NCBI GenBank assembly: GCA_944388175.1
Contig: CALXHR010000001.1
Location: 372,001 to 436,000 of the forward strand
DNA length: 64,000 nucleotides
Direction: 5' to 3'
Source of the DNA: an uncultured Gemmiger sp.
GTDB lineage: Bacteria; Bacillota; Clostridia; Oscillospirales; Ruminococcaceae
Positions 14,573 to 58,566 of this stretch are shown in pieces. Position 1 is the stretch's first letter. Every line of letters starts with the position of its first letter. Below the pieces are notes generated by a model. That model did not search any database and was not told the DNA's origin. It saw only the letters and a list, made by a program, of their open reading frames with translations. Position numbers and translations under genes: made by a program.

Positions 14573-14578
14573 CAAAGG

Positions 14579-14673
14579 CTTATCTTTCGGTTCCCCGCAG
14601 GATTTGGCACCTTACATTTCCATGCAGGTTGTCGGGCTTCTCAGGGCCTGTTCCCTCAGCCGCTCTTGATAAG
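14579..14673 (-). ncRNA. SAM-I (S-box) riboswitch aptamer
   Basis: On the minus strand the leader shows the S-box hallmarks in order: CTTATCAAGAG opening P1, GGCTGAGGGA, GGCCCTGAGAAGCCCGACAA, GGTGCCAAATCC and the closing GAAAGATAAG that pairs back to P1. The terminator at 14544-14572 follows directly. High SAM should favour termination ahead of metK, so the gene is shut off when its product is abundant. Confidence 0.95.
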
Positions 14674-14698
14674 TTGCTATTCTGTTGTAACGCCGGCA

Positions 14699-15500: not shown

Positions 15501-15524
15501 AAAAAAGCATGGCAAACAGCTTTC

Positions 15525-15655
15525 CGTTTCTTTCATCCGGACTATACCGTCGGCCCCGGACTTGCACCGGGTCAGCGGCTGCCCAAGCAGCCGGTCGCGG
15601 GCTTGCGGCACATTGGCCGCTTACCGCCGGTGGGGAATTGCACCCCGCCCTGAAA
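15525..15655 (-). ncRNA. FMN riboswitch (RFN element)
   Basis: Read on the minus strand, the element starts with TTTCAGGGCGGGGTGCAAT and CCCACCGGCGGT, carries AGCCCGCGA, GACCCGGTGCAAGTCCGGG and GCCGACGGTATAGTCCGGATG, and closes with GAAAGAAAC. These are the defining RFN segments. FMN binding should promote the terminator at 15461-15500 and repress ribU. Confidence 0.96.
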
Positions 15656-15673
15656 CAGACTTTCTACCCCCAC

Positions 15674-17979: not shown

Positions 17980-19314
17980 TTATTCGGCCACCAGCAGGGT
18001 GGGCAGCGTTTTTTCGCTGTACTGGCTGGAGATCATGGGGCTGAGCGATACGCGGGAATATACGCCCTGCGCCACGCCGTCGTAGACGTACACACCGGTG
18101 AGGTTGTAGTAGCGGTTTTTGCCAAACGTACCGTCGGGGCCGATGCCGTAGTTTTCGGTCACGTAGGGGCGGCAGAACGCCTGCAGCAGATACCCGGTGC
18201 GCGGCGTAGCACGCACGATGGCTTCCCATTCGGCCTGGGTGCTCTCGACACCGGCATGCACCCCGCGCGACGCGTAGGAATCCAGCGGTTTTAAGATCCA
18301 GTCGTCCTTGTGCGCCAGCACGCGCGGGATATCGCTTTCTGCAAACGTCTTGGTCAGCGGCACATGGGCCTGTACAAAGGCCTGTTCTTCCGGCGTGAGC
18401 AGAGCCCGGGTCTGTGGCTCGTGCAAAATGCGAAAAATTGTCTTGTTGTGCACAAGCTGGGTGTGGAAATCCCCCACCAGCAGCACGGCGTCATCACGCA
18501 CGGCGGCCAGCAGTGCCGCGCAGGCGTCGTAGCGCTCCAAAATATCGCTGGTGACGGCGCGGCGGTAGATGGCGTCGATCTTATGCCCGGCCGGGCCGTA
18601 CAGCGCTTTGGCCGCGGCGTCGTACCGCAGGCTGCGAATATCGCAGACTTCGGCCTGCACGCCGTTTTGCACAAAGTGCTGGCGGAACACCTCGAACTCA
18701 TTGACGGTGCCGCAGTCCAGAAAATCCACAATGGCCACATACGGCGGCTGCTGCGTACCGCGCACGCGGGCGTACAGGGCGCACAGCGTTTGCACCCAGC
18801 TGTCGAACAGTTCGCAGGTGCGGGTGGTATGGGCGGCACACAGCTGGCGGTACACGGTGGAACGCTGCTGCGCCAGGTTGAGTTCGCGGTCCTCATTCAT
18901 GGCGCTGGTGCCGTCGGTGTTGAACTCACAGTACTGGTAGGCACCGGTTTCCTCGTTATAGAAGAAATCGATGCGCGCCATCGGCAGCAGCGCGCGCGAC
19001 GGGTCGGCGCGCAGGATCAGTTCTTCGGTCACTGCGTCGAACCCGAACAGCGCGCGGTACGCTGCATCGCGGTAATACGCCCGCATAGCCTTGCCCAAAA
19101 TGCCGTACAGCACGCGGATATCGGCCGCAAACTGTGCAAAGACGGACTCCGGCAGGAGTTTGGGCATATAACAGGTGCGCACATACTCGCCGTGGTGGAT
19201 GGCGGTGGACGCTTTCATATACGCCGTGATGGCGTCAAATTCCTGCCGGGTGCGCGGCAGGTCGGCGGCAGCTGCCGCCAGATATGCCCTGTGCAGGGCC
19301 TGCATCTTGTTCAT
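17980..19314 (-). CDS. ATP-grasp ligase, glutathionylspermidine-synthase-like
   Basis: 444 residues. The pre-ATP-grasp part has YQYCEFNTDGTSAMNED, like the carboxylate-binding EFNxD segment of glutathionylspermidine synthase and circularly permuted ATP-grasp proteins. The ATP-grasp part has WILKPLDSYASRGVHAG (lysine plus glycine-rich loop) and a C-terminal YYNLTGVYVYDGVAQGVYSRVS. Such enzymes join a carboxylate to an amine through an acyl phosphate. The ATG at 19314 overlaps the stop of the gamma-glutamyl ligase gene by four bases (ATGA), so the two are translationally coupled and probably act in succession, as GshA and GshB do. The actual amine and peptide substrates are not known. Confidence 0.8.
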   Translation of the reverse strand: MNKMQALHRAYLAAAAADLPRTRQEFDAITAYMKASTAIHHGEYVRTCYMPKLLPESVFAQFAADIRVLYGILGKAMRAYYRDAAYRALFGFDAVTEELILRADPSRALLPMARIDFFYNEETGAYQYCEFNTDGTSAMNEDRELNLAQQRSTVYRQLCAAHTTRTCELFDSWVQTLCALYARVRGTQQPPYVAIVDFLDCGTVNEFEVFRQHFVQNGVQAEVCDIRSLRYDAAAKALYGPAGHKIDAIYRRAVTSDILERYDACAALLAAVRDDAVLLVGDFHTQLVHNKTIFRILHEPQTRALLTPEEQAFVQAHVPLTKTFAESDIPRVLAHKDDWILKPLDSYASRGVHAGVESTQAEWEAIVRATPRTGYLLQAFCRPYVTENYGIGPDGTFGKNRYYNLTGVYVYDGVAQGVYSRVSLSPMISSQYSEKTLPTLLVAE

Positions 19315-20540
19315 AAACCGGTTTCCTGTTCCCATATCGTTTTGCGCCCGGCGGCCAGCGCGGCAAACGGCGCCAAAAGGGCGCGGTCCTCGGGCGAAGA
19401 AATGCGGCTGCGCGCCTGCAGCAGCAGCCAGGCCAGTTCCTGGGCGACGGGGCGGCCGTAGACCCAGGCATTGTACCCGTCGTGGCAGACCGCCAGCTTG
19501 GCGTTGGCGATATCCACCGTGCCCAGGCCCGCATAGTGGCGCAGCACATTTTGCAGCGCCGCCCGGCTGCCGAATATCGCCTTAATCAGCTGGGCGTACG
19601 CCGCGATGTAAGGCGGCGGCATGCTGTCGGCGCCGCGGATTTCGAGATAGCTTTTTAAACGCGCATCAAAAAAGAACATCGAAAGGATGTGTTCGATCTC
19701 GCTTTGCTGCAGCTGCGCGCCGTAGACCTGCTGCGCGCTCTGCCCGCCCACGTCCGCCGTTTGGCCGCCCTGCAGCGCCACAATCAACGGCCGGGTGAGC
19801 ACCGTCTCGGCATAGCGGGCAAAGCCGAAATCCGGTTCCATCAAATGGGGCGGCACGCCGCAGCGGTCGTCATCGACGTCCTGCCAGATGCGCGTGCGCA
19901 CGCTGTAGCCGCTGTTGCGGTGCCCCTGGTAACGGGCGGCGCTGTCGGTCAGCAGGGCCAGCAGCGGCGTCAGCAGGCAGGCGGCGCGCATTTTTTGCAC
20001 AAAGTCCTGCTCGCTGTAATAGTCTATGGACAGCTGGGTCGACGCCGTGGCGCGCATCATCTGGATGCCGCCGGCCCCGGTATGCTGGAAATAGCGGTCC
20101 ATGGCCGCATACCGCTGTTTGGGGATCAGGGGCAGGTCCTCGGCCCGGCGGGTGGGGTGGTACCCCACGTTCCACGCGCGCAGCCCGCGTGCCGCCAGCG
20201 TCATGTCCAGCTGCACGCGGAACTGGTCGTAGACCGCCAGCATACGGCGCACATCGCTTTGCGGGGCGATGCTGACTTCCAGCTGGCAGGCCGGTTCCAG
20301 CGAGACGCTGTACTGCGCCGCGGTATAGCCCATATACAGCCCGTCGATGGTGATGGGCACATCCTGCGCCTGCTGCATCTGGCGCATGATGCTTTGCACC
20401 TCGGCAAACATGACGGGTTCCCCGCCCGCACGCGTCAGAAAATGCTCCACCTCCAACCCCAGGGTCAACGGGCCCTGCGGTTTGCAGCCCCGGCGGAAAT
20501 AGTCGACCAGGGCTTGTTTTTGTTCGTCCAGTTTGGCCAT
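19311..20540 (-). CDS. Glutamate-cysteine ligase, GCS2-type (plant/EgtA-like)
   Basis: 409 residues, beginning MAKLDEQ with AGGAG eight bases upstream. LGLEVEHFL (about 28-35) is the first ATP/metal-binding strand of the GCS2 family. MRATASTQLSIDYYSE, then LTPLLALLTDSAARYQGHRNSGYSVRTRIWQDVDDDRCG, match the substrate and metal site of plant-type gamma-glutamylcysteine synthetases. The family joins glutamate through its gamma carboxyl to cysteine or another amine. In Firmicutes glutathione is usually made by a GshF fusion, so a separate GCS2 enzyme coupled to an ATP-grasp ligase is unusual. First gene of a four-gene operon with a long, structured leader. Ligase identity is good; the acceptor is not proven. 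Confidence 0.85.
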   Translation of the reverse strand: MAKLDEQKQALVDYFRRGCKPQGPLTLGLEVEHFLTRAGGEPVMFAEVQSIMRQMQQAQDVPITIDGLYMGYTAAQYSVSLEPACQLEVSIAPQSDVRRMLAVYDQFRVQLDMTLAARGLRAWNVGYHPTRRAEDLPLIPKQRYAAMDRYFQHTGAGGIQMMRATASTQLSIDYYSEQDFVQKMRAACLLTPLLALLTDSAARYQGHRNSGYSVRTRIWQDVDDDRCGVPPHLMEPDFGFARYAETVLTRPLIVALQGGQTADVGGQSAQQVYGAQLQQSEIEHILSMFFFDARLKSYLEIRGADSMPPPYIAAYAQLIKAIFGSRAALQNVLRHYAGLGTVDIANAKLAVCHDGYNAWVYGRPVAQELAWLLLQARSRISSPEDRALLAPFAALAAGRKTIWEQETGL

Positions 20541-20723
20541 ACGGGCGCTCCTGTCAGGGGGCGCGGCCTGTGGCGGCCCCCGCATTGTTTGCAAACACTT
20601 GTGCGGCTCCATTTTTCCATGCGCGCAGCGGATGGTGAATTGCGCGCCCAAAGGCGGTTGCCGGGCCGGCGTTTTGCCAGAACGGCGCGCCATTGCGCAA
20701 ACGTGATATAACAGCCGCTTCCT
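20541..20723 (-). ncRNA. Structured 5' leader of the ligase/ATP-grasp operon (copy A of a shared element)
   Basis: About 180 bases of untranslated leader. After a 5' hairpin (AGCCGC/GCGGCT) comes a core at 20641-20701. In it TTGCGC can pair with GCGCAA, continued by GGCG/CGCC, and encloses two small hairpins around a stretch closely matched at 58463-58521. A further GC-rich stem (about 20553-20580) ends next to the AGGAG site. The same promoter-plus-leader pattern precedes the operon at 58.4 kb. I do not recognise it as a known riboswitch class. Confidence 0.5.
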
Positions 20724-20729
20724 GCGGCT

Positions 20730-20758
20730 ATTATACCCCGAAACGCCCGCCGGCGCAA
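20730..20758 (-). promoter_or_regulatory. Promoter of the ligase/ATP-grasp operon
   Basis: Minus-strand TTGCGC and TATAAT with a 17-base spacer, directly behind the terminator of the preceding unit. Confidence 0.8.
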
Positions 20759-57855: not shown

Positions 57856-58395
57856 TCACCAAAAGCGGCGCAGCCGCGGGCGCAGTACCAGCCGGTAATA
57901 CCGCGTCAGCACGCCCAGCGCGCGGTCGTACAAAAAGAACGCCGCATTGCCCATGCCCAGCAGCGCCAGCAGCATCGGCAGGCCGTCGCCGGCGAGTTCC
58001 CGCCAGACGGCCGGGCCCAGCAGCGCGGCCAGCAGGGCGTACAGCAGCGCCACGGCGGCGTTGAATGCCAAAAACGTAAGCACCCAGCGCAAAACCGCCG
58101 GGCGCACGGCGCGCAGCGCACAGCGCAGCACCGGGTAATGGCCGACGGCCAGCGCGTAGAACAGCGCCAGTTCGGTTTCCGGCACCAGCAGCAGCGCCAG
58201 CACCGCCGTGGTAAGGTAGAGCAGCAGCGCGTAGCGCGGGCCGTATTCCTCCTGCACGGGGATGAGCAGGAACGCCGCCAGCATCGGCGCGGCATAGGTG
58301 CCCACCTGCAGCGCGCTGCCCGCCAGCAGCAACACGACCGACAGCGCCGCCAGCACGCCGCACAGCGCCGCTTTTTGGCTTTTGGACTTGCGCAA
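57856..58395 (-). CDS. Polytopic membrane protein, ECF S-component-like
   Basis: 179 residues with about five membrane segments. The start KAALCGVLAALSVVLLLAGSAL and the following APMLAAFLLIPVQEEYGPRYALLLYL pattern resemble ECF-transporter S components and related uncharacterised clostridial membrane proteins. TTG start at 58395 with an AAGG site; no better start fits the frame. First gene after the shared leader element at 58.5 kb; gh13 amylase follows. A transported substrate cannot be assigned. Confidence 0.62.
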   Translation of the reverse strand: MRKSKSQKAALCGVLAALSVVLLLAGSALQVGTYAAPMLAAFLLIPVQEEYGPRYALLLYLTTAVLALLLVPETELALFYALAVGHYPVLRCALRAVRPAVLRWVLTFLAFNAAVALLYALLAALLGPAVWRELAGDGLPMLLALLGMGNAAFFLYDRALGVLTRYYRLVLRPRLRRFW

Positions 58396-58531
58396 AGTTT
58401 CACCTTGCTTTTTAGAAGTTATTTAAAATCATTCTGGCATGCGTGCCAACAAATAGCAGAACCGCGCATCCACGGCTTTGCCGGGCCGGCGTCATACCAG
58501 GAACGGCGAGCCGCTGCGCAAAAATCGCTCT
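58396..58531 (-). ncRNA. Structured 5' leader (copy B of a shared element)
   Basis: The core 58463-58521 matches the leader core at 20641-20701 with about four of five bases identical. Here TGCGCA-G-CGGCT can pair with AGCCG-TGGA-TGCGCG; in the other copy the same positions are GGCG/CGCC, a paired change. The first bases of this transcript (AGCCGC) can also pair with GCGGCT inside the stem, which would be an alternative fold. Confidence 0.5.
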
Positions 58532-58537
58532 GCGGCT

Positions 58538-58566
58538 ATTATACCCTATCCGGCCGCCGTTTGCAA
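58538..58566 (-). promoter_or_regulatory. Promoter of the membrane protein/amylase operon
   Basis: Minus-strand TTGCAA and TATAAT with a 17-base spacer. It overlaps the end of the deacetylase gene. Confidence 0.8.

Follow-up and report, generated by a model that had tools for sequence, protein, structure and literature searches.

A promoter-associated and probably mobile non-coding repeat in Gemmiger and other Clostridia

Small elements of the REP/RAYT type and those derived from IS200/IS605 carry imperfect palindromes at their ends, lack terminal inverted repeats and have a fixed target beside an end, and elements moved by Y1 HUH enzymes likewise have hairpins at their ends and integrate next to a fixed target. 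Correia elements are accompanied by a TA target duplication, and ERIC repeats are palindromic; to our knowledge, ERIC has no link to -10 boxes. In the passages of PMC10969869 that deal with them, the Correia elements (NEMIS/CREE) of Neisseria are short, non-coding, multicopy and mostly upstream of genes, they carry outward sigma70-like promoters, and RNase III cuts their transcripts at the terminal inverted repeats. The same passages present the pneumococcal RUP, BOX and SPRITE repeats as small, intergenic or regulatory in position and inserting into one another, while the part of PMC2759123 that concerns ERIC (enterobacterial RU-1) gives it as an intergenic, mobile-looking repeat of about 127 bp.

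The repeat described here resembles the Correia elements in size, lack of coding, copy number, position and promoters, the pneumococcal repeats in size, position and nesting, and ERIC in length, position and apparent mobility, the last being a likeness of these traits rather than of aligned sequence. The differences lie in the ends and the target. Whereas Correia elements have terminal inverted repeats, the ends of this element are -10 direct repeats inside palindromes, and unlike the Correia elements it appears to insert at the -10 box itself, with units that stack in register. Neither a single -10 target nor one-unit arrays that share a hexamer are mentioned where PMC10969869 describes RUP, BOX and SPRITE. 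With the REP/RAYT and IS200/IS605 systems it shares palindromes at the ends and a target beside the end, but the tag next to the palindrome is TATAATA rather than GTAG. As in MITEs, we find a short, non-coding, dispersed repeat; the terminal inverted repeats of that class are missing, since TATAAT(A) has the same orientation at the two ends and the palindromes are subterminal. A candidate terminal inverted repeat (TATTATACCA..GCGCAGCGG, mirroring the right end in Gemmiger) was rejected, as by eye it fails in other genera. A literature search by sequence strings and topic words, with most subscription papers and all preprints outside its scope, returned no description of such a repeat.

The window, that is, the whole 64,000-nucleotide stretch of Gemmiger DNA that was analysed, contains two copies, A and B (Table 1). 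A preliminary description had reported two leaders at 20.7 and 58.5 kb with a common core behind similar promoters, and all of this holds: both lie on the minus strand, behind a -35 hexamer (TTGCGC and TTGCAA, respectively), a 17-bp spacer and TATAAT, and copy A as query recovers copy B at E 5.3e-7, a similarity beyond chance, with the family model also matching other genomes of the genus. Its extent was right for the core but covered only the middle of the element, so that the left-end hairpin and the right-end -10 hairpin were missed. Exact matches to ACGCCGGCCCGGCAA in the 1.75-Mb genome of origin (assembly about 69% complete) are confined to the two copies. Some 280 bases after the last position of the window, a third copy (L081) occupies 64282-64411 when the window numbering is continued (G000:C1:436282-436411); its right -10 box reads CAGAAT. 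The orthologue of copy B in genome G200 (L077) is more complete and has part of another unit behind it, and comparison with it identifies the 5' AGCCGC of copy B, earlier taken for a competitor of the stem, as the left arm of the lost left hairpin. For the gene after copy B, our third gene caller picked a later in-frame start, and a Pfam search (E up to 0.01) returned no family. Copies A and B are decayed members of a dispersed non-coding element and not a gene-specific pair of riboswitches.

Table 1. Features of the two copies in the window (window numbering).
Feature	Position	Strand	Basis
Copy A, host-promoter -35 hexamer (TTGCGC)	20753..20758	-	Direct reading; the 94-site profile has the same 17-bp spacer
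Copy A, left -10 hexamer TATAAT (R1), putative insertion point	20730..20735	-	Single TATAAT here in the element-free orthologous G200 leader L076
Copy A, repeat element with decayed right end	20611..20729	-	Covariance-model match 20610-20739, minus strand, 106.9 bits; left boundary from L076, right from family alignment
Copy A, left hairpin H1, TATAATAGCCGC-AGGAA-GCGGCTGTTATA	20707..20735	-	Direct reading, fold and family alignment
Copy A, central hairpin H2 (core of the preliminary description)	20640..20701	-	Fold; covariation over 29 and 43 copies
Copy A, relic of right hairpin H3	20611..20639	-	Alignment with intact copies
Copy A, second -10 box, decayed to GGAAAAAT	20611-20618	-	Alignment with intact copies
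Gene following copy A, encoding a GCS2 (glutamate-cysteine ligase family 2) protein	19311..20540	-	Pfam PF04107, E 6.4e-32
Copy B, -35 hexamer TTGCAA	58561..58566	-	Direct reading
Copy B, left -10 hexamer TATAAT	58538..58543	-	Direct reading
Copy B, truncated element without the H1 right arm and with little of H3 left	58430..58537	-	Model match, 54.4 bits; alignment with the fuller orthologous L077 (G200)
Copy B, relic of the right -10 box (R2), CAGAAT	58431-58436	-	Alignment with L077 in G200
Gene following copy B, encoding a small hydrophobic protein; probably starts at TTG, AAGGTG upstream	57856..58395	-	Open reading frame list

The complete element is non-coding and measures about 95-125 bp. 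It starts directly after the -10 hexamer of a sigma70-type promoter, with a left hairpin at the -10 box, and ends with a second, extended -10 box (TGnTATAATA) within a right hairpin, which is decayed in copies A and B. In an alignment of 20 hand-chosen copies the first part reads TATAATA-GCCGC-AAA-GCGGC-TATTATACC; a central hairpin follows (GCCG-TT-CTGGC-loop-GCCRG-CC-CGGC on a TGCGC/GCGCA base), and then the right end, AATTATACCAT-loop-CATGGTATAATA. Intact copies fold into three consecutive hairpins, the central one long, rather than into the three-way junction with two small hairpins that had been proposed from copies A and B. Among eight sequences folded, energies lay below those of dinucleotide shuffles by 6.5 to 8.1 SD (L063, L065, L084) or 3.8 to 4.9 SD (L094, L167, L088); the values for copy A (-1.8 SD) and copy B (-0.8 SD) are weak, as expected from their decay. 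An internal loop, CTC/AACC, recurs across many genera, and a core-less form that keeps both ends occurs at L295. Genome G207 (L083, L084, L086, L087, L162) has long, AT-rich right hairpins in which the stretch leading up to the -10 box is similar to the left flank; in L084 the similarity covers about 20 bases, the -10 box among them.

We consider it probable (roughly 0.8) that this is a promoter-targeting, non-autonomous mobile repeat of which copies A and B are old members; the repeat, its boundaries, its promoter context, its arrays and its fold are firm. The element would enter a sigma70-type promoter directly behind the -10 hexamer, and as its own last bases form an extended -10 box (TGnTATAAT(A)), the host gene would again stand behind a -10 box, with the original -35 and -10 now at the far left and reading through the element. 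Further copies could enter at the right end, where stacking is possible because that end recreates the target, giving head-to-tail arrays with one TATAATA per junction, and old copies would decay within the leader, as in the window. The right-hand -10 box is presumably active, and movement was presumably brought about by an enzyme acting in trans. Neither a mobilising enzyme nor a longer, gene-carrying member turned up in eight stretches of genome G256 that two end patterns had singled out for having left ends with no right end nearby; ordinary, decayed or core-less copies were all they held. Against a mobile repeat stand this result and the conservation of pairs in the core, which exceeds what a passive repeat needs.

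Of 14 Gemmiger sites, namely copy A and 13 others used as queries, six have an element-free orthologous place with a single TATAAT. Queries with joined flanks recovered uninterrupted orthologues in other species for L065, L075, L079, L081 (in G200, L266) and L088, while the remaining eight of the 13 gave no uninterrupted place among the eight candidates scored per genome. The copy A promoter is uninterrupted in G200 (L076): leaving the element aside, the two sequences agree in 130 of 143 aligned columns, but directly past the junction 10-16 bases cannot be aligned between the two species. The orthologues seen for copy B, L080 and L071 are all occupied (L077, L078 and L079, respectively). L067 (G227) and L131 (G213) are alike in promoter and gene start and differ in their surroundings, and this pair was not counted as an element-free place. 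As the element-free places are in other species, parsimony leads us to infer gain by insertion rather than repeated precise loss. There is one -10 box without the element and two with it; given that the CATGG before the right -10 copy is conserved as element sequence, this right copy may belong to the element rather than being a target duplication.

The flanks point to promoters as the common denominator. When 94 of 98 left flanks were aligned on the -10 box (four were dropped for lack of a recognised hexamer or too little flank), a TTG peak appeared in 67, 56 and 50 of the 94 at a 17-base spacing, TG preceded the left hexamer in 81, and information was low elsewhere. The left flanks are therefore unrelated except as promoters, since only the -35 and extended -10 positions are common to them. 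At the right ends, TG is present in 79 of the 85 that could be parsed from the 98 sites, and an A stands seven bases after the right hexamer, as at a start site, in 43 of 71 flanks (those left after dropping 14 that resemble the start of another unit). Judged by these letters, the right end resembles a promoter of the extended -10 type.

The next gene runs in the same direction at 74 of 79 sites, in the opposite direction at two and undetermined at three, according to a home-made third gene caller that uses amino-acid composition and ribosome-binding sites; the 79 are not all independent, because they include orthologous pairs (for example L078/L080, L071/L079, L219/L220 and L077/copy B). Two cruder callers gave 50/23/6 and 55/19/5 for the same three classes, and in the cases inspected (L065, L217) they had chosen reverse-strand shadow reading frames. 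For the copy carried by a plasmid of Anaerotruncus colihominis, the next annotated gene is in opposite orientation. An all-against-all comparison of 71 downstream proteins gave 19 related pairs at E <= 1e-5, comprising orthologues of one site, one Gemmiger family with sites in four species, and some cross-genus cases; the rest are unrelated, and the genes do not fall into one pathway. Across genera, with names assigned by eye, YfhO-like proteins recur in three, TilS-like in two and Asp23-like in two. The YfhO-like large membrane proteins follow L184, L204 and L218, and the TilS-like and Asp23-like loci are L090 and L213, and L194 and L222, respectively.

Tandem arrays consist of head-to-tail units with one TATAATA, or a local variant of it, common to each junction. 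They reach eight units at L206, five plus a partial sixth at L210, and three each at L222 and L223. Within single arrays (L206, L207) near-identical ends enclose differing cores, so that ends and core appear as separate modules. Beside arrays in G256 (L204, L205, L206, L288) lies a second cassette of about 190 bp, TGCGCAG...GCTGTGGTATAATA, with TATAATA at both ends, which may be another family with the same target.

The covariance-model search that the preliminary description had proposed uncovers relatives at the level of genus, family, order and class. The copy A leader alone gave many matches in 35 genomes of the same genus, the best full-length ones spanning about 115-145 bp at 75-82% identity, with several matches per genome in some species, and a strict core pattern searched in a collection of 84,980 species hit 13 contig stretches, all in Gemmiger. 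A model built on 20 copies (model R1) matched 13 of the 35 genus genomes at E <= 0.01; eight had matches below 1e-6, and some of the other five had a single marginal match only. With a model of 29 copies (model R2), matches were obtained in 94 of 396 family genomes, covering 45 of 126 family genera (E <= 1e-3), in 43 of 394 order genomes (E <= 1e-4) and in 14 of 391 class genomes (E <= 1e-4), the last including families of other orders; these genome sets are overlapping samples, and with at most eight candidates scored per genome the copy numbers are lower bounds. Five class-level copies inspected (L327, L329, L330, L331, L333) follow the same plan. Genome G256 contains 66 right ends within three mismatches (0 for a control pattern) and about 70 left hairpins, counted on both strands with a nearly palindromic pattern. 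Copies are also present on the A. colihominis plasmid (NZ_CP094683.1) and on a faecal contig labelled as phage (MT835828.1, an unverified record). One pattern match in a viral collection, on a contig without the core, was taken as chance. The preliminary description had named hits scattered at random as a mobile repeat as the outcome that would speak against its leader; scatter of a mobile repeat is what we see, but it is tied to promoters rather than random.

If the mobile reading is correct, one element family has rewritten numerous promoters across a broad set of gut Clostridia, landing on the -10 box and leaving a second one behind. Insertion could therefore be close to neutral and stacking possible; the family would provide a natural source of portable promoters and multi-start leaders and would make many 5' leaders of Oscillospirales misleading for riboswitch hunting. 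It would also raise the question of what kind of protein or nucleic acid selects insertion sites by their -10 box.

The hairpin arms may bear on that question. In G256, copies of the -10 box that lie within the arms (R1' and R2') follow the local box at several loci: for R1/R1', TAAAAT in L276 and L277, TACAAT in L280 and TAGAAT in L279; for R2/R2', GGGATAAT in L274, TATCAT in L275, L276, L281 and L282, TAAAAT in L277 and TACAAT in L278. Mismatches occur in the left hairpin at L290, in the L210 array, in later units of L274 and in the plasmid copy (L334), and in the right hairpin at L280, L285, L286, L287 and one unit of L288. Two processes could account for this matching: the target may be chosen by pairing, or one hairpin arm may be corrected against the other once the element is in place. 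Under the former, the two inner R' segments of the core (ATTATACCA) would pair with the single-stranded extended -10 box (TGGTATAAT) at promoters opened by RNA polymerase, so that active promoters would be the landing sites, the -10 box the address, and the match of R' to unusual boxes (TAAAAT, TACAAT, TAGAAT, TATCAT, GGGATAAT) its trace. We regard such pairing-guided targeting as a tentative idea and rather unlikely: several loci break the match, and hairpin-templated correction would explain the matching too.

The compensatory changes noted between copies A and B are genuine and become very strong with relatives. An alignment of 29 copies has two-sided changes at 20 of 42 pairs (10.2 +/- 1.8 in shuffles), and one of 43 divergent copies, one per locus from hand-chosen loci, at 39 of 42 (18.8 +/- 2.2 in shuffles), with 94.0% of cells paired against 77.0%; both alignments were fitted to the structure and are biased towards it. 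In slid controls of the structure alignment, pairing falls to 29-51%. Covariation in such palindromic repeats need not mean RNA function, and whichever of the two processes made R' copies follow the local -10 box, the two-sided changes in the palindromes are no proof of RNA. Tests of which strand of the structured core might act contradict one another. A model-based alignment, of a kind that can favour G.T, gave 23 G.T against 2 A.C in the central hairpin, 3 against 8 in H1 and 1 against 5 in H3, and the Gemmiger alignment gave 19 against 14. By folding energy the other strand is better in 41 of 43 copies for H2 and, for H3, in 32 of the 36 copies whose strands differ, H1 having no preference; a strand-symmetric stem aligner counted 39 A.C against 2 G.T in H2, mostly at what by eye is one conserved loop position.

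The structured core may nevertheless act as RNA. The element could be a domesticated or selfish promoter cassette whose core makes a trans-acting small RNA from either strand, its spread being secondary: extended -10 boxes face both ways (the inner R2' is TGGTATAAT on the other strand), the core folds and covaries, and its reverse strand folds better in nearly all copies, but the conflict among the strand tests speaks against this reading, which we judge improbable. Very improbable, in our view, is an undescribed cis-regulatory RNA with its promoter inside the conserved unit, spread by ordinary duplication and kept for gene regulation, close to the riboswitch or protein-bound leader first suggested. 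The strong covariation of the central hairpin, the recurrent internal loop, the nearly constant direction of the next gene and the few recurring downstream genes would agree with it. The downstream genes are mostly unrelated, however, and other species of the genus can have the orthologous gene without the element; moreover, a -10 box stands at either end and at every junction of arrays of up to eight units, and a right-hand promoter downstream of the RNA would bypass the leader. The earlier statement that no known riboswitch motif is present stands: at the gathering threshold no Rfam family matched the element in the window, a permissive search of the two leaders gave only far sub-threshold hits (the best, isrK on the other strand, at 16.3 and 10.5 bits against a gathering value of 50), and 24 further loci gave none on the element (E up to 1). 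Apart from the element, an FMN riboswitch (15521-15661) and a SAM riboswitch (14577-14675) lie on the minus strand of the window at the gathering threshold.

An IS200/IS605 derivative, or a REP element moved by a RAYT, is extremely improbable: hairpins at both ends, a target repeated at the right end, the lack of terminal inverted repeats, the presence of Y1 domains in 11 of 16 genomes with the element and a weak Y1 match about 1.3 kb from an element in G251 (C17, E 7.9e-7) would suit it, but five of the 16 (G256, G134, G155, G006, G099; 94-99% complete) have no Y1 match at E <= 0.001, the two inspected RAYT-like genes sit in GTAG-tagged repeats of their own (those in G000 and G227 belong to such a repeat, distinct from the element), IS200 copies in G220 have different ends, and exact TATAAT/ATTATA hairpins occur at one of 42 scanned Y1 loci (L234).

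RAYT-like Y1 transposase genes at L123:1958-2422 and L124:1971-2516 are accompanied by GTAG-tagged hairpin repeats (GTAGGGGC...), one of which lies inside the gene at L124. On contig C1 of G220, five near-identical IS200-like copies (L125-L129) each follow a T-rich stretch behind a possible hairpin.
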